From Thermoanaerobaculia bacterium (GTDB taxonomy: Bacteria; Acidobacteriota; Thermoanaerobaculia; Multivoradales; Multivoraceae), in NCBI GenBank assembly GCA_022824725.1, contig JAJDZH010000178.1, positions 1 through 40,911 on the forward strand: DNA of 40,911 bases, written 5' to 3'. Both the position numbers and the translations under genes were made by a program. The notes below the pieces were generated by a model that saw only the letters and a list, made by a program, of their open reading frames with translations, was not told the origin of the DNA and searched no databases. Of the stretch, positions 25,104-31,314 are shown piece by piece; position 1 is the first letter of the stretch; every line of letters starts with the position of its first letter.

Positions 25104-25162
25104 CGTCTGCGCGTCGGACGGGATCGCCGCGATTGCACAGGGAGCCAGCGCCTCAGTTGACG
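25085..25162. repeat. 21-bp direct repeats spanning two convergent stop codons
   Basis: GAGCCAGCGCGTCAGTTGAC plus G at 25085-25105 recurs as GAGCCAGCGCCTCAGTTGAC plus G at 25142-25162, differing at one base. The first copy holds the TGA stop of the acyl-CoA ligase. The second, read on the other strand, holds the last codons and stop of the DUF3467 gene. Spacing is 57 bp. It looks like a short segmental duplication between convergent genes. Confidence 0.7.
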
Positions 25163-25467
25163 CGCCCGGACGGCTCCGTCGGGTCGGGCGCTTCCTCGAT
25201 CACTCCGTGGACCTCCTCGTAGCGCCGGAGATTCGTGCCCAGGGCCCGTATGATCCGCTTGAGATGCCCGGGACTGGTCACGATCCGGGCGCTGACGATG
25301 CCCTGAGGCGGAACCACGTTGATGAAGTCGAGGATGAACTCCTCGCGGGTGTGGGTGATGCGCAACAGGTTGGAGTAGGCCCCCTTCAGCTCGGCGTCGC
25401 CGATCTTGACGTTGATCGACGAGGACGCATCCTGGTCGGCCGGTCCTTCCTTGGGTTGGTCGCTCAT
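25153..25467 (-). CDS. DUF3467 domain protein
   Basis: Protein of 104 residues. The core GAYSNLLRITHTREEFILDF, then SARIVTSPGHLKRIIRALGT and NLRRYEEVHGVIEE, matches DUF3467, a small family of unknown function found widely in bacteria and some archaea. The N-terminal 15 residues are charged and probably disordered. The ATG at 25467 overlaps the wzt stop by four bases (ATGA) and has GGAGG upstream, so it is the last gene of the long mreB-to-wzt unit. The C-terminus (SGRVN) lies in a 21-bp direct repeat shared with the convergent gene. Confidence 0.85.
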   Translation of the reverse strand: MSDQPKEGPADQDASSSINVKIGDAELKGAYSNLLRITHTREEFILDFINVVPPQGIVSARIVTSPGHLKRIIRALGTNLRRYEEVHGVIEEAPDPTEPSGRVN

Positions 25468-26804
25468 TCGATCCTCCGTTGGTCGCCGGCCTGTTGGCCG
25501 GGCGAAAGCCAGTCGATGTCGGTCCGCGCAGCCAGCGTCTCCACCTGCCACTCGTGGTCGGGAAGGTAGAGGCCGATGCTCCTCAGCGACGTGCTCTCCG
25601 TCACCGTGAACCGGAGCGCGCGGCGGCGGTAATCGTACGCCCTGCCGTCGCGGGCGTGAACCGCGACATCCACGGTGTACTCGCCCGGCGCCAGCCGCAA
25701 CTCCGGACAGACGAGCCGGACCCGCACCGGCCCGGCGAGAGAGCGCGGTTCGTAGCCGGCCAGATCGGTGTTCGTGCCCCAGCAGTCGACGCCCCGCGGC
25801 GTCTTGACGCCGACGCCGAAGACGAAGTCGGACAGTTCCTCTCTTGGTTCGACGTCGAGCTCGAAGGCCACCGCTTCCCCGCAGTGGACGTGGTAGCGCT
25901 CCTGCCGCTCGTCGCCGGCCAGCAGGCGCGCCGCCAGGATCTCGGCCTGCCCCGAACCCCAGCGCGCGACCTCCTCGGCAGCGTCCGCGGGCGCGGTCGT
26001 GGCGTGCTCGCCTTCCTCCGACTGGCGGCGCCGGTCGTGGGCCTCGCCCTCGCGGGCCGCCACCGACTCCAGGTAGGCGTCGATGACTCGTCGCGTCGAC
26101 CCCAGGCCCCGGACCCGCCCGCCGTCCAGCCACATCGCCCGGTCGCAGATCTCGTCGATCAGCGTCATCGTGTGGCTGACGACGAGCAGGGTGCCGCCCC
26201 CGGCCAGGTGCTCCTCGATCCGCGCCAGGCAGCGGTGAACGAACTCCTCGTCGCCGACGGCGAGGACCTCGTCGACCAGGAGCACTTCCGGGTCGGTGTG
26301 AATGGCGACCGAGAAGCCGAGCCGCACGTACATGCCGGAGGAGTAGTACTTGATCGGCTCCTCGATGAAGTCGCCGAGACCCGCGAACTCCACGATGTCG
26401 TCGTAGCGCTGCTCGATCCGCCGCCGGCTCAGCCCGAGCAGCGCCCCGTTGATGAAGATGTTCTCCCGGCCGGAGATCTCGGGATGAAAGCCCGCGCCGA
26501 GCTCGATCAGGGCCGCGACCCGTCCGTTCACCGAGAGTTCGCCGGAAGTCGGCGGCAGCAGACCGGCCACGAGCTTGATCAGCGTCGACTTTCCCGAACC
26601 GTTGCCGCCGATGATCCCCACCGCCTCCCCGGCCGCGACCTCGAAGCTGACGTCGGTCAGGGCCTCGACGACTTCACCCGAGGCCAGGCCCCCGGTCAGG
26701 CTGCCTTCGAGCAGCGCGCTCTTCAGCGTCCGCAGCCGGTAGCCGCCGGCGGCGCGCCGGTACCGCTTGCACAGGCCGCTCGCCGCAACCGCCGGCGGGC
26801 TCAA
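25464..26804 (-). CDS. wzt: Wzt-type ATPase of a polysaccharide ABC exporter
   Basis: ATPase of 446 residues that energises export of a lipid-linked glycan. The nucleotide-binding domain has Walker A GIIGGNGSGKSTLIKLVAGL, the text GAGFHPEISGRENIFINGAL typical of O-antigen and teichoic acid exporters, the signature YYSSGMYVRLGFSVAIH, and Walker B VLLVDEVLAVGDEEF. Residues about 300-430 form a beta-sandwich glycan-binding domain like Wzt-C (VAFELDVEPREELSDFVFGV, then GVDCWGTNTDLAG and PGEYTVDVAVHARDG). Such domains recognise the glycan end before export. A TTG at 26804 lies one base after the wzm stop and is the likely start; the frame runs to 26903 but that part overlaps wzm. Confidence 0.93.
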   Translation of the reverse strand: MSPPAVAASGLCKRYRRAAGGYRLRTLKSALLEGSLTGGLASGEVVEALTDVSFEVAAGEAVGIIGGNGSGKSTLIKLVAGLLPPTSGELSVNGRVAALIELGAGFHPEISGRENIFINGALLGLSRRRIEQRYDDIVEFAGLGDFIEEPIKYYSSGMYVRLGFSVAIHTDPEVLLVDEVLAVGDEEFVHRCLARIEEHLAGGGTLLVVSHTMTLIDEICDRAMWLDGGRVRGLGSTRRVIDAYLESVAAREGEAHDRRRQSEEGEHATTAPADAAEEVARWGSGQAEILAARLLAGDERQERYHVHCGEAVAFELDVEPREELSDFVFGVGVKTPRGVDCWGTNTDLAGYEPRSLAGPVRVRLVCPELRLAPGEYTVDVAVHARDGRAYDYRRRALRFTVTESTSLRSIGLYLPDHEWQVETLAARTDIDWLSPGQQAGDQRRIE

Positions 26805-26805
26805 C

Positions 26806-27606
26806 TCAGACCGCCTCGGCCAGGGTGTCGGAGAGGCGCGAGAAGAGGCCGGCGCCCGCCACCCACGACACGGCGGCGATCGCGGCCATGATCGCCCACA
26901 CATGAAGTTCGGGCAGGCGGCCGAAGAACAGGAGGTCCTGCGTCGCGGTGGTGAACGAAGTCATCGGATTCAGTTGCACCACCTTCGCGAACCGTGGTGG
27001 CAGGTCGCTCAGGGTGTAGATGATCGGCGCGAGGAAGAAGGCGAGGACGAGCAGGTTGCCGAGAAGATCTCGCACGTCCTTGAAGTGAACGCAGAGAGCC
27101 GAGAGGGCGAAGGCGAGGCCGGCCACCATGACCAGTTCGATCGCCAGAACGGCAGGCAGCAGGACGGCCGTCCAGCCGGAGATCGGATAGCCGAGCAGCC
27201 GGCCGGCGACCAGGGCGACCCCAACGATCGGCAGCGCCAGGAGGAAATGCACCAGGTTCGCCGCCACCGCCACCGCCGGCAGCACCTCGACCGGAAACAC
27301 GGCCTTCCGGATCAGGCCTCCGTTGGCCGTAAGCGACGTGCAGCCTTCCAGCAACGAGGTGGAGACCCAGATCCAGGGGAACAGACCGGTCACGAGAAAC
27401 ACGCCGTACGGCTCGACCGCCACCAGGTCCGAGCGCTTCAGGATCATGCCGAAGACGAACGAGTAGACGGCGAGCAGCAGGAGGGGATTGAGCAGGGACC
27501 ACAGGAACCCCAGGACGCTTCCCCGGTAGCGGGCGCGCAGCTCCCGCATGACCAGAGTCCAGAGGAGGCTGCGGTAGCGGACCAGCGTTCGGGCCAAGTC
27601 GACCAT
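26806..27606 (-). CDS. wzm: Wzm-type permease of a polysaccharide ABC exporter
   Basis: ABC-2 type membrane protein of 266 residues that forms the channel for glycan export with Wzt. It shows the amphipathic N-terminal segment LLWTLVMRELRARYRGSVLG, then FLWSLLNPLLLLAVYSFVFG. Five further hydrophobic stretches follow, and the C-terminal text LNPMTSFTTATQDLLFFGRL is typical of the family. ATG at 27606 (MVDLARTL) is preferred; ATG at 27618 is four codons upstream. The fusion protein gene ends at 27620, so both genes touch. Glycosyltransferase genes that would build the glycan are not in the window. Confidence 0.94.
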   Translation of the reverse strand: MVDLARTLVRYRSLLWTLVMRELRARYRGSVLGFLWSLLNPLLLLAVYSFVFGMILKRSDLVAVEPYGVFLVTGLFPWIWVSTSLLEGCTSLTANGGLIRKAVFPVEVLPAVAVAANLVHFLLALPIVGVALVAGRLLGYPISGWTAVLLPAVLAIELVMVAGLAFALSALCVHFKDVRDLLGNLLVLAFFLAPIIYTLSDLPPRFAKVVQLNPMTSFTTATQDLLFFGRLPELHVWAIMAAIAAVSWVAGAGLFSRLSDTLAEAV

Positions 27607-27619
27607 TGCCGCGAGCATC

Positions 27620-29851
27620 TTACGCGGGTGCGCGGGCCGGACCGGCGGTCGCGCACTCGAGGTACACCGGCGCCCCGGCAAGCACGGCGGGAACCCGGTC
27701 GAGTTCCCGTCCATCGCGGTCGCGCACCGCGCGCACCTCTCTCCGCGGCCGGTAGGAGCGACCGCGGCCGTCCAGCGCCCAGACGACCCGGATCTCGCGC
27801 CCCTCCCGAAGCGCCCGGTAGCCGCGCAGCCCTGAAGGCATCCGCAGGCGCAGGACCTCCGCGCCGGCCAGTTCGCGCTGGAGTTGACGCAGGGCGAGCC
27901 AGGCCGGGCGCCGCCGGAGGCCGTCGCCCCGCGGGTCGAGTAATCCGTAACCCGCGGCCGCCAACTGCCACCAGTAGACGCGCTCCGCCAGACCGCTGCC
28001 CAGCGCCTCCAGGGCGTAGCGGACCAGGTAGCTGGCCTGGGCGTCCTCGTCGACGGCGACATCGCGGCCGGCGGGGGCATGCGGACCCTCGGCGAGCGGC
28101 CAGTTGAACTCGGTGACCCAGCTCCTCTCCGACGCGCAGTCCGGCGCCCTGCGAGCCAGGGAGCGCAGAACCGCCAGCTTGCCGGCGAGGTCGAAGCCGA
28201 GCTGGCGGTTCTCTGGCGCGCCCCGCCGGTCGACGTAGAGCTGGCTCGCCAGAACATCGAACCGGCGCTCCGGCTGTCCCGAGTGGATCAGAGCCGCTGT
28301 CGCGTGAGGCTCGAAGTCGATCACCGCGGGTGCGAGAACGCAGGCGTCGCGGCACTGGGCCCGTACGGCCTCGGCGCCGGCCGCCAGCAGGTTCCAGTAG
28401 TCCCCGGGCCGCCAGACGCCCCACTTGCTGCGATTGGGCGCCTGGCCGATCAGGAACCGGCGCCCGCAGGGAGCGAGCGCGGCCGCGGCTTCCTCGACCC
28501 GCCGCCGCCAGAGCCCGGCGTCCCGAACCAGCGACCGGTCCTGGCTGAACTGGAACACCAGGTCGACCGGCCGCTCGCCACGGCGGAGAGTCCGCGCCAG
28601 TTCCAGCAGATCGCGGTCGACGCCCTGCCAGAGGTGGAAGCGCAGGAGCACGGTCTCGACTCCGAGCTCCTCGATCGCCTCGGCCAGGGAAGGGACCGGG
28701 GCCGAGCCGGGCCCGATCGCGACGCCCAGGCCGCCGAAGGGAACCGGCGCCGGCGCGCGGTCGAGGGCACGCCTGACGCGACGCGCCTCCGCGACCGACA
28801 GGAGCAGCGGTCCGGCGGATCGAAGCAGCGGCCTAGCGTGGTGGCCGGCGTCGCGCAGGCGCACGCCCAGGCGCTGGCCGCGGCTGGCCTGCTGATGCGG
28901 CTGATCGGTCAGTGGATCCCAGACCGTGCGCTCGGTGGCCGTGGCCCCGCGTTCCGCATCGGGAACGTGGGGGTGGGCGCGGCGCCGCGGCAGGAGGAGA
29001 TCGGACAGACGCCGCAGGCCCCGGCGCGCGCCCTGCTTCGATCCCAGCTTGAGACGGAACGCGCGGTGGCAGGTCTCGAACCAGATTCGCTGAAGCCGCG
29101 GCAAACCGCCCGGCCGGTAGCCGGCCAGGTACTCGGCGCGATCCTCCGGCCGCAGCACCGGCATCCGGCTCAGGTCCCTCAGTCGCTGACTGGTCGACAG
29201 CCGTCGGCGAAAACGGGCGCGGTTCAGGTCGACCAGGAAGAGTTCCGCGTCGGTCGTCGCTTCCGACAGGAGGACGTTGCCGGAGGTCAGATCCCTGAAC
29301 CAGACGCCGTGACGGTGCAGTTCCGCGGCCAGCGCCCCGACCCGCCGCAACAGGGTCGGACCGTGGATTCCGGGAAACCGCTCGGGGCCGTCGCCGCCGT
29401 TCAGGGCCCGCAGGACGTAGCGCAACTCCAGCGCGTCCGGCACCAGGCGGCAGACGTACCAGGCGGGACCGTCGATGGTGTTCGATTCCGCGTAGAGGAG
29501 CGGTTCCGGCGTCGGGATCCCGAGACGCCGGAAGCGGACCGCGGCCCGGAAGCTCAGACGAGCCCGGCTGCCCCGGCGGCGGCGGCGGAGCCGCGCGTGC
29601 AGATCATCGTGGCGGAATTGCTTGACGACCACGGCCGTCTCGGCCGCCTCCGCGGGCCCTCGCCAGCCGGCTTCGTAGAGGTAGCTGCGTCCCCAATGCA
29701 GGCTGCGCCGGCCGCTCCCCGGGTCCAGCAGCCGGCGCAGGGCCTCCTCGAAGCCGGCGCCCAGGTCACCGTCCACGGCGGTCGGCGTGACCGCGCCGGT
29801 GAGGTCGTCGAACTCGAACCGGCGTTCCGGTCCTTCGGCCCTGGCCGTCAA
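27620..29851 (-). CDS. Kdo/WaaP-type kinase fused to a glycosidase-like domain
   Basis: A 743-residue protein from a TTG at 29851 that overlaps the rng stop (TTGA), behind AAGGG. Residues about 45-290 look like an LPS kinase: VVVKQFRHDDLHARL with the ATP-binding Lys77, RAAVRFRRLGIPTPEPLLYA, then GVWFRDLTSGNVLL with Asp187 and LFLVDLNRARF with Asp208. The usual HRD is FRD. Residues about 370-660 resemble a clan-A glycosidase barrel: GVAIGPGSA, FRFHLWQG-like strands, FLIGQAPNRSKWG, and SWVTEFNWPLAEG with Glu581 in the nucleophile position. The acid/base position reads Asn-Arg (473-474) instead of Asn-Glu. A beta-sandwich-like tail follows. No signal peptide, so both domains appear cytoplasmic. 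A glycan-modifying or priming role is inferred from its place between rng and wzm. Confidence 0.75.
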   Translation of the reverse strand: MTARAEGPERRFEFDDLTGAVTPTAVDGDLGAGFEEALRRLLDPGSGRRSLHWGRSYLYEAGWRGPAEAAETAVVVKQFRHDDLHARLRRRRRGSRARLSFRAAVRFRRLGIPTPEPLLYAESNTIDGPAWYVCRLVPDALELRYVLRALNGGDGPERFPGIHGPTLLRRVGALAAELHRHGVWFRDLTSGNVLLSEATTDAELFLVDLNRARFRRRLSTSQRLRDLSRMPVLRPEDRAEYLAGYRPGGLPRLQRIWFETCHRAFRLKLGSKQGARRGLRRLSDLLLPRRRAHPHVPDAERGATATERTVWDPLTDQPHQQASRGQRLGVRLRDAGHHARPLLRSAGPLLLSVAEARRVRRALDRAPAPVPFGGLGVAIGPGSAPVPSLAEAIEELGVETVLLRFHLWQGVDRDLLELARTLRRGERPVDLVFQFSQDRSLVRDAGLWRRRVEEAAAALAPCGRRFLIGQAPNRSKWGVWRPGDYWNLLAAGAEAVRAQCRDACVLAPAVIDFEPHATAALIHSGQPERRFDVLASQLYVDRRGAPENRQLGFDLAGKLAVLRSLARRAPDCASERSWVTEFNWPLAEGPHAPAGRDVAVDEDAQASYLVRYALEALGSGLAERVYWWQLAAAGYGLLDPRGDGLRRRPAWLALRQLQRELAGAEVLRLRMPSGLRGYRALREGREIRVVWALDGRGRSYRPRREVRAVRDRDGRELDRVPAVLAGAPVYLECATAGPARAPA

Positions 29852-31314
29852 GGCCCTTCGATCTCGGTTACGACGAAGCGCTCCCGGTCGAGGTCCGGAT
29901 CCGCCCGCAGCAGGATGGGGACGTCGAACGCTCCCTGCATCCCGTCCAGCACGTCCGATTCGGAACCGTTCAGGCCGTCCAGCACCTCCGGGTGGACCCT
30001 CACCGCCAACTGGCGGCAACCGCGGCCGGCGCGCGCCAGACAGGTTCGCCGCAACTCCAGGCAGATCGTCGCGACGGACTTGATCCGGCCCCGGCCCCGG
30101 CAGGTCGGGCAGGGCCCCATGAGCGCCCGCTCCAGGTTCTCGCGCCGCCTCTGCCGGGTGAGTTGAACCAGGCCGAACTCCGAGATCTCGAGCACCCGCT
30201 TCCGGGCGCGGTCCTTCCGCAGCTCCAGCTCGAGCCGCGCGAACACCGCGCGACGATCTTCTTCGTGCTCCATGTCGATCAGGTCGATGACGAGGATGCC
30301 GGACAGGTCCCGCAGCCGTATCTGGCGCACGGCTTCCGCCACCGCCTCGAGATTGGTCCGGAGGACGGTGTCGCGGAAACCGCCGGAGCCGACATCGCGG
30401 CCGGAGTTCACGTCGATGGCCACCAGCGCCTCGGTCTGGTTGATGACCAGGTAGCCGCCGGAGGGCAGCGGCGCCCGCGGCTCCAGCGCGGCGTCGACGG
30501 CGGCGTCGATCCGGTAGCGATCGAACAGGCCGCGACGGCTCTTCTCCAGCCTCGTCACGAGTTCCGGCTGGACCCGCCCGAGGTACTCGCGGATGACCCT
30601 GTGCGCATCGGCGCCGTCGACCAGCAGGGCGCCGAAGTCCTCGCCGAAGTGGTCGCGAATCACCCGTACCGCGAGTTCTTCCTCCTGGTGGAGCAATGCC
30701 GGGGCCGCGGTCGCGGCCGCCCGCCCCTCGATCTCCCGCCAGACCTCCGCCAGAAGCTCGTACTCCCTCCCCAGGTCCTCCGCCGGCGCCCCCTCCGCCG
30801 CCGTGCGCACGATGCACCCCGTCGCTTCGAGCGCGTCGCCCCACCCTTCCATGACCGCCGTCTTCAGACGCGCCCGTTCGTCCGGATCCTCGATCCGCCT
30901 GGAGATTCCCAACCGACCGGCCAGCGGCGTCAGCACCAGGTACCGGCCGGGAAGCGTGATCTCGGTCGTGACCCGCGGTCCCTTGTCCGCCAGTCTTTCC
31001 CTGGCGATCTGAACGACGATTTCCTGGCCCCGCCGCGGGATGCCGGGGCTCATCCGCCGGCCGTCTCCGCCTGGCGCTCCCGACTCGTCGCCCGCCATCT
31101 CCTCGAGGTACAGGTAGCCGTCCCGTTCCAGTCCCAGATCGACGAAGGCAGCCCTCATGCCGGGAAGAACCCGCCGTACCCTCCCCTTGTAGATGTTGCC
31201 CACGAAGCCGCGGCCACGATGGCGCTCGACGAAGAACTCCACCAGCCGGCCGGCCTCGAGGACGGCAAGGCGGGTCTGGTGCGGGTCGCCTTCGACCAGA
31301 AGCTCCCTGTGCAT
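29848..31314 (-). CDS. rng: Ribonuclease G
   Basis: Endoribonuclease of 488 residues in the RNase E/G family, which processes 16S rRNA and degrades mRNA. The N-terminal S1 part (FVGNIYKGRVRRVLPGMRAA) contains an insert (GDESGAPGGDGRRMSPGI). The catalytic segment has ALVAIDVNSGRDVG with its metal-binding Asp, then ILVIDLIDMEHEEDRRAV. The Zn-link is CPTCRGRGRI. The C-terminal scaffold of RNase E is absent, hence RNase G. ATG at 31314 (MHRELLVEGDPHQTR) fits the family; the frame extends further as a shadow. In E. coli rng also follows the mre genes, so the position is conserved. Confidence 0.95.
   Translation of the reverse strand: MHRELLVEGDPHQTRLAVLEAGRLVEFFVERHRGRGFVGNIYKGRVRRVLPGMRAAFVDLGLERDGYLYLEEMAGDESGAPGGDGRRMSPGIPRRGQEIVVQIARERLADKGPRVTTEITLPGRYLVLTPLAGRLGISRRIEDPDERARLKTAVMEGWGDALEATGCIVRTAAEGAPAEDLGREYELLAEVWREIEGRAAATAAPALLHQEEELAVRVIRDHFGEDFGALLVDGADAHRVIREYLGRVQPELVTRLEKSRRGLFDRYRIDAAVDAALEPRAPLPSGGYLVINQTEALVAIDVNSGRDVGSGGFRDTVLRTNLEAVAEAVRQIRLRDLSGILVIDLIDMEHEEDRRAVFARLELELRKDRARKRVLEISEFGLVQLTRQRRRENLERALMGPCPTCRGRGRIKSVATICLELRRTCLARAGRGCRQLAVRVHPEVLDGLNGSESDVLDGMQGAFDVPILLRADPDLDRERFVVTEIEGP

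Follow-up and report, generated by a model that had tools for sequence, protein, structure and literature searches.

Where it has been studied, phosphorylation of the LPS core proves either essential for the integrity of the outer membrane or important to it, as with WaaP in Pseudomonas (PMC6147952). WaaP (RfaP) is the LPS core heptose(I) kinase and carries D188-L189-H190 and R191 (DLHR) at the position of DFG (PMC6147952). KdkA phosphorylates O4 of Kdo, the position that a second Kdo would occupy (PMC10743493), and the Kdo hydrolases of Helicobacter take off the outer Kdo (PMC5371381). WbdD of E. coli O9a, a glycan kinase of the cytoplasmic O-antigen pathway, combines kinase and methyltransferase (PMC3482155). 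The GH39 protein PslG has a C-terminal carbohydrate-binding domain in its layout, and its catalytic residues are E165 (acid/base) and E276 (PMC7237758).

Here we describe a gene that joins a WaaP-type kinase to a GH39/PslG-like barrel in a single product of 743 aa. It lies in the window, by which we mean the whole stretch of DNA analysed: 40,911 nucleotides of contig JAJDZH010000178.1 (assembly GCA_022824725.1, a Thermoanaerobaculia bacterium), from a metagenome-assembled genome (MAG) of 3.7 Mb and 97% completeness. Both folds are already known; the conserved pairing, its fused, split and reversed history and the family of barrels lacking an acid/base residue are apparently undescribed. To our knowledge no KdkA has a barrel partner, and full-text searches of limited open-access literature found no described kinase-GH fusion, in agreement with the initial annotation, whose author knew of no protein with this pairing. 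ORF analysis of the window placed the fusion gene on the minus strand, a detail not given in the initial annotation, among the following genes:

29848..31314, minus strand: rng (RNase E/G family), the upstream neighbour conserved in the class; PF10150, E 2.9e-87
27620..29851, minus strand: kinase-barrel fusion gene; ORF, kept in 58 of 60 relatives, AlphaFold2 pLDDT 92.4
26806..27618, minus strand: wzm (ABC-2 membrane protein); PF01061, E 2.6e-19
25464..26804, minus strand: wzt with a C-terminal Wzt_C domain; PF14524, E 1.9e-26, and PF00005

The fusion gene starts with a TTG codon at 29851, in a 4-nt overlap (TTGA) with the stop of rng, and it ends with a TAA stop 1 nt before the wzm ATG. Among the relatives that keep it, which represent 24 of 25 genera, it is mostly a single uninterrupted frame. 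When codon positions of the window were compared with those of relatives whose proteins are about 50-91% identical, divergence fell mainly at third positions and did so equally in kinase, linker and barrel. Because this third-position pattern extends across the linker, the fused state is under purifying selection and is not the product of a frameshift. The notion that two unrelated genes were joined by frameshift, misassembly or chance into something functionally meaningless was therefore rejected, on the conservation among relatives and the codon-position divergence, and we give it a negligible probability: nothing was found in its support beyond a linker composition that is unusual at first sight, and it is contradicted by the single frame across many independent assemblies, by coding-type divergence that spans the linker and by fusions that recur, in either order, across three phyla. 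The gene is thus a genuine single gene, as had been proposed from the window alone.

An AlphaFold2 model of the fusion protein, built from 45 related sequences, was of high confidence (mean pLDDT 92.4, pTM 0.85) and showed a kinase followed by a barrel, so that both the WaaP-type kinase and the glycosidase-like barrel anticipated in the initial annotation were recovered. The residues that the annotation had listed (Lys77, Asp187, Asp208, Glu581 and Asn473-Arg474) were each confirmed at the stated positions. The features of the kinase half are as follows:

28994..29824, minus strand: WaaP-type kinase domain, residues 10-286; PF06293, E 1.2e-9, profile match to WaaP 6dfl, E 1.9e-17, fold Z 17.1
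29621..29623, minus strand: Lys77 codon, ATP-binding Lys, invariant in alignment A4
29291..29293, minus strand: Asp187 codon, catalytic-loop Asp, in FRD here and in HRD in most relatives (alignment)
29228..29230, minus strand: Asp208 codon, Mg-binding Asp, with DLNR replacing DFG; invariant in alignment A4

Its sequence places the kinase in PF06293, the Pfam family that it has in common with KdkA: its match lies above the gathering score (38.3 bits against a cut-off of 21.3), the same family was matched in fused and split relatives, and no other PF06293 match was found in the 97%-complete genome that carries the fusion. The NCBIfam KdkA model matched weakly, below its cut-off. In a profile comparison with PDB chains WaaP 6dfl scored best by a wide margin, followed by PRPK at 3e-9, and when the kinase domain was modelled alone (pLDDT 92.7) WaaP was the top fold match over 225 residues (rmsd 4.1), tied with PRPK/Bud32. 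Identity to WaaP 6dfl is 19%. The two proteins share the catalytic Lys, the catalytic-loop Asp and a D-L-x-R motif in the place of DFG, and heptosyltransferases co-occur with both. Unlike WaaP, the kinase described here is fused to, or in an operon with, a glycosidase-like barrel. In the 33-row alignment A4, Lys77, Asp187, Asn192, Asp208 and Arg211 were invariant. The assignment as a Kdo/WaaP-type kinase built on Lys77, Asp187 and Asp208 thus stands, whereas the FRD motif, to which attention had been drawn as a replacement for HRD, turned out to be a feature of the genus: FRD is typical of the window's genus and was seen only there among kinase-barrel fusions, and the other relatives mostly have HRD and variants of it.

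The remainder of the protein divides into three parts, in which two codons carry the catalytic comparison:

28757..28933, minus strand: residues 307-365, a conserved W-D-x-L-x-D-Q-P-H stretch with helices (alignment, AlphaFold2 model)
27872..28756, minus strand: (beta/alpha)8 barrel, GH39/PslG-like, residues 366-660 (AlphaFold2, structure search, profile alignment)
27647..27871, minus strand: C-terminal beta domain, residues 661-735 (AlphaFold2, structure search)
28439..28441, minus strand: Ala471 codon, where GH39 has its acid/base Glu (hhalign); all 69 non-inverted members have Ala and all 7 inverted members have Thr
28109..28111, minus strand: Glu581 codon, aligned with the GH39 nucleophile; all 69 non-inverted members have Glu, which all 7 inverted members have lost

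In the split clade, where the barrel has a gene of its own, residues 307-365 correspond to the N-terminus of its product. The best structural matches of the barrel were GH39 proteins, with 5jvk at Z 30.6 (341 residues aligned, 14% identity) and PslG at Z 28 (about 350 aligned, 20-21% identity). The likeness to PslG and GH39 (PDB 4zn2, 5bx9, 9g17; 5jvk) takes in both the (beta/alpha)8 barrel and the C-terminal beta domain, at Z 28-31 and 14-21% identity; the beta domain occupies the place of PslG's carbohydrate-binding domain, the position of the nucleophile Glu is retained, and PslG is likewise part of a polysaccharide pathway. No Pfam or NCBIfam model matched the barrel, and a search of its own genome with PF01229, the Pfam model for GH39, gave no match.

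We compared the barrel by profile-profile alignment (hhalign) with the GH39 proteins L102-L105, which are PslG-like and come from the same order; they matched it with a probability of 96% and an E of 2e-9. In this alignment Glu581 falls on the GH39 nucleophile at the end of strand 7, the catalytic Asn-Glu of GH39 aligns with Gln470-Ala471, and the second Asn of NEPN pairs with Asn473. The initial annotation had correctly recognised a barrel that keeps a nucleophile-like Glu581 and misses the acid/base Glu, but had placed the missing residue at Asn473-Arg474, three residues beyond Ala471. The canonical acid/base Glu is absent from every one of the 76 distinct barrels collected. The barrel differs from PslG and GH39 in having Ala at this position, in its fusion to a kinase, in many additional conserved basic residues and in having no signal peptide, unlike the proteins of L102-L105, which begin with signal-peptide-like sequences. 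Since the acid/base feature and the family profile PF01229 both fail, the barrel is, as judged from its residues and profiles, a relative of GH39 that is not assignable as a GH39 enzyme.

Conservation within the barrel points in two directions. Asn473, Arg474, Trp477, Asp512, Glu514, Lys558 and Trp584 were constant in 76/76 barrels, with Arg439, Lys476 and Arg542 nearly constant, and the charged residues of this set (R439, R474, K476, R542, K558, D512, E514) lie at or near the ends of barrel strands. The clan-A companions Arg404, Tyr539 and Trp627 were kept in nearly all non-inverted barrels. Against a pure binder, the retention of Glu581, Arg404, Tyr539 and Trp627 looks like a working -1 subsite, and altered catalysis in the barrel is a serious rival to a binding role. 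Such a barrel might use Glu581 as its nucleophile together with a new acid (Glu514/Asp512), or act on a substrate with a good leaving group in the manner of myrosinase; it could trim or transfer a core sugar, after which the kinase would phosphorylate the freed hydroxyl, comparable to a Kdo hydrolase followed by a Kdo kinase. We consider this unlikely, even with Glu581 in 69/69 non-inverted members, D512 and E514 in all barrels, the three companions so widely kept, the KdkA site coinciding with the position of the second Kdo (PMC10743493) and hydrolases for the outer Kdo known from Helicobacter (PMC5371381), given that the canonical acid/base is missing from every member, that reverse-order fusions keep the kinase and lose Glu581, and that no sign of Kdo specificity was seen. 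It is a rather unlikely prospect that the barrel represents a new class of enzyme, a nucleophile-only clan-A fold acting on an activated or acidic LPS glycan by transfer or trimming, with the kinase of the same chain phosphorylating the product; if true, the protein would modify the LPS core in two steps and would do so across both Acidobacteriota and Verrucomicrobiota.

The arrangement of kinase and barrel varied among lineages. The 76 distinct barrels comprise 47 kinase-barrel fusions, 7 barrel-kinase fusions and 22 barrel ORFs without an in-frame kinase; the question of whether PF06293 and a glycosidase-like domain share one chain elsewhere is thereby answered by recurrence in both orders. 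Fusions of the window's type occur in its class and in Verrucomicrobiota, where 58 of 195 genomes gave a match to the barrel profile, a strong one in about 30, and a kinase is also present in most of the long barrel frames examined. In other, distant Acidobacteriota kinase and barrel are separate neighbouring genes, which overlap by 4 nt in L082, L085, L086, L087 and L088. Barrel-kinase fusions were found in Gammaproteobacteria, in Verrucomicrobiota and in one Acidobacteriota genome (L081/L091), at these loci:

L081:1390-3594, L091; L126-L129, L168, L169: reverse-order fusions

The reverse-order fusions form a single clade in the tree (support 100/99), and the topology as a whole demands several fusion or fission events. 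The pair is therefore a conserved partnership across several phyla and not an accident. Within the reverse-order clade Glu581 and Arg404 are lost, whereas the Asp residues of the kinase are kept, as are N473, R474, W477, D512, E514, R542 and K558 of the barrel. These proteins are a natural pseudo-enzyme form of the barrel, and their loss of the nucleophile, with the kinase and the other barrel residues kept, supports a binding role.

Several loci departed from these arrangements. Adjoining the reverse-order fusion in two loci (L162:12851-15088 and L163:12902-15127) is a protein of 741-745 aa, a type that in L162 has three PF06293 (Kdo kinase) stretches in tandem. Barrels that stand alone, outside LPS clusters, also occur in Gammaproteobacteria; those of L119-L124, L061 and L062 have no adjacent kinase and keep both Glu581 and Ala471, and the two in L061 and L062 lie near trmB- and rpiA-like genes. 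In one member of the window's class (G249; L100 / L080:1288-2031) the mre-mrdA-rodA-rng locus is followed by a kinase without a barrel, and the slot next to rng thus seems able to hold the kinase alone.

Genes in the flanks were called with a two-pass codon model. Upstream of the fusion and in the same direction lie rng, rodA and mrdA, together with mreD, mreC and mreB as identified by reading the sequence; downstream lie wzm, wzt and an ORF of the DUF3467 type. It was this setting that had suggested a kinase of the WbdD type, which would cap the non-reducing end of a cytoplasmic O-polysaccharide; the barrel would bind the chain or gauge its length, with Wzt-C reading the cap as the mark for export. 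The fusion shares with WbdD a glycan kinase and, in the window's genus, the proximity of Wzm/Wzt with Wzt_C: wzm-wzt directly follows the fusion gene in the genus and lies within a few kb of it in five other loci (L054, L092, L093, L098, L101). A methyltransferase gene after the split pair in Acidobacteriota also recalls the kinase and methyltransferase of WbdD (PMC3482155). The co-occurrence with Wzm/Wzt that had been put forward for checking is nevertheless patchy. No wzm-wzt was found in the fetched flanks of seven other class members (L049, L050, L055, L056, L057/L094, L095, L097) or at any split-gene Acidobacteriota or Verrucomicrobiota locus examined, so there is no constant genetic link of the fusion to Wzm/Wzt with Wzt_C, and the neighbours at the split-gene and Verrucomicrobiota loci are lipid A/core genes. 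In addition, the kinase profile is closer to WaaP, and the fusion has no N-terminal methyltransferase domain, PF06293 being its sole Pfam domain and the model consisting of kinase and barrel. The protein fails the defining domain content of WbdD. A role in chain termination or chain length is weakened by these findings; we regard it as improbable, and as the least likely of the three readings. The DUF3467 ORF (window 25153-25467) follows wzt in the genus and likewise in L054, L092, L093 and L098, and is apparently a constant companion of this type of Wzm-Wzt.

In Verrucomicrobiota (L151-L154, L156) the fusion is the last gene of an operon with LpxK, heptosyltransferase II and usually a GT2 gene; mostly these operons also have a CAAX-type protease and/or an O-antigen ligase, and genes overlap in several of them. 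In the split-gene Acidobacteriota the kinase, the barrel and the methyltransferase gene that follows them adjoin genes for a Trm112-like protein, a heptosyltransferase, an O-antigen ligase and a D-glycero-beta-D-manno-heptose-7-phosphate kinase. The neighbourhood shared by two phyla, together with the WaaP-like kinase, points to LPS inner-core phosphorylation. On balance we favour, with some confidence, a kinase of the LPS inner core that acts in the cytoplasm and is permanently tied to a degenerate GH39/PslG-like barrel, with both halves working on one glycan. Inferring both the substrate and the order of steps, we propose that the barrel would grip the acidic core oligosaccharide and present it to the kinase, binding it and not cleaving it through the usual pair of Glu residues, and that the WaaP/KdkA-type kinase would phosphorylate lipid A-core, most likely on a core heptose or on Kdo, at the cytoplasmic side of the inner membrane. 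As noted in the initial annotation, no signal peptide is visible in the fusion protein sequence, and it is probable that both parts face cytoplasmic, lipid-linked glycan.

Against an LPS-core role, the gene is accompanied in the window's genus by mre/mrdA/rodA/rng and wzm-wzt and is not part of an LPS-core cluster, the stand-alone barrels of Gammaproteobacteria lie away from LPS genes, and no heptosyltransferase (GT9) was found in the fusion's own MAG. Given that GT9 is present in 59/60 relatives, its absence from the MAG is probably an assembly gap; for the same reason we rejected the idea of a heptose-less core and hence a Kdo kinase. The genome does have WaaA, with LpxK directly after it.

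An inner-core kinase with a constant partner barrel that lacks the acid/base residue, in phyla whose LPS has hardly been studied, would offer a testable entry to LPS-core assembly in Acidobacteriota and Verrucomicrobiota. It would also show how evolution has remodelled a clan-A glycosidase fold, either into a binding module or into an enzyme of altered mechanism.

Two further observations concern the Verrucomicrobiota loci. In one of the operons a single ORF of 713 aa (L153:10497-12638) combines a CAAX protease-like domain with an O-antigen ligase (Wzy_C) domain. In one other genome a sulfotransferase gene (L155:7018-7836) overlaps the fusion gene by 4 nt, a hint that the core in this genome is sulfated.
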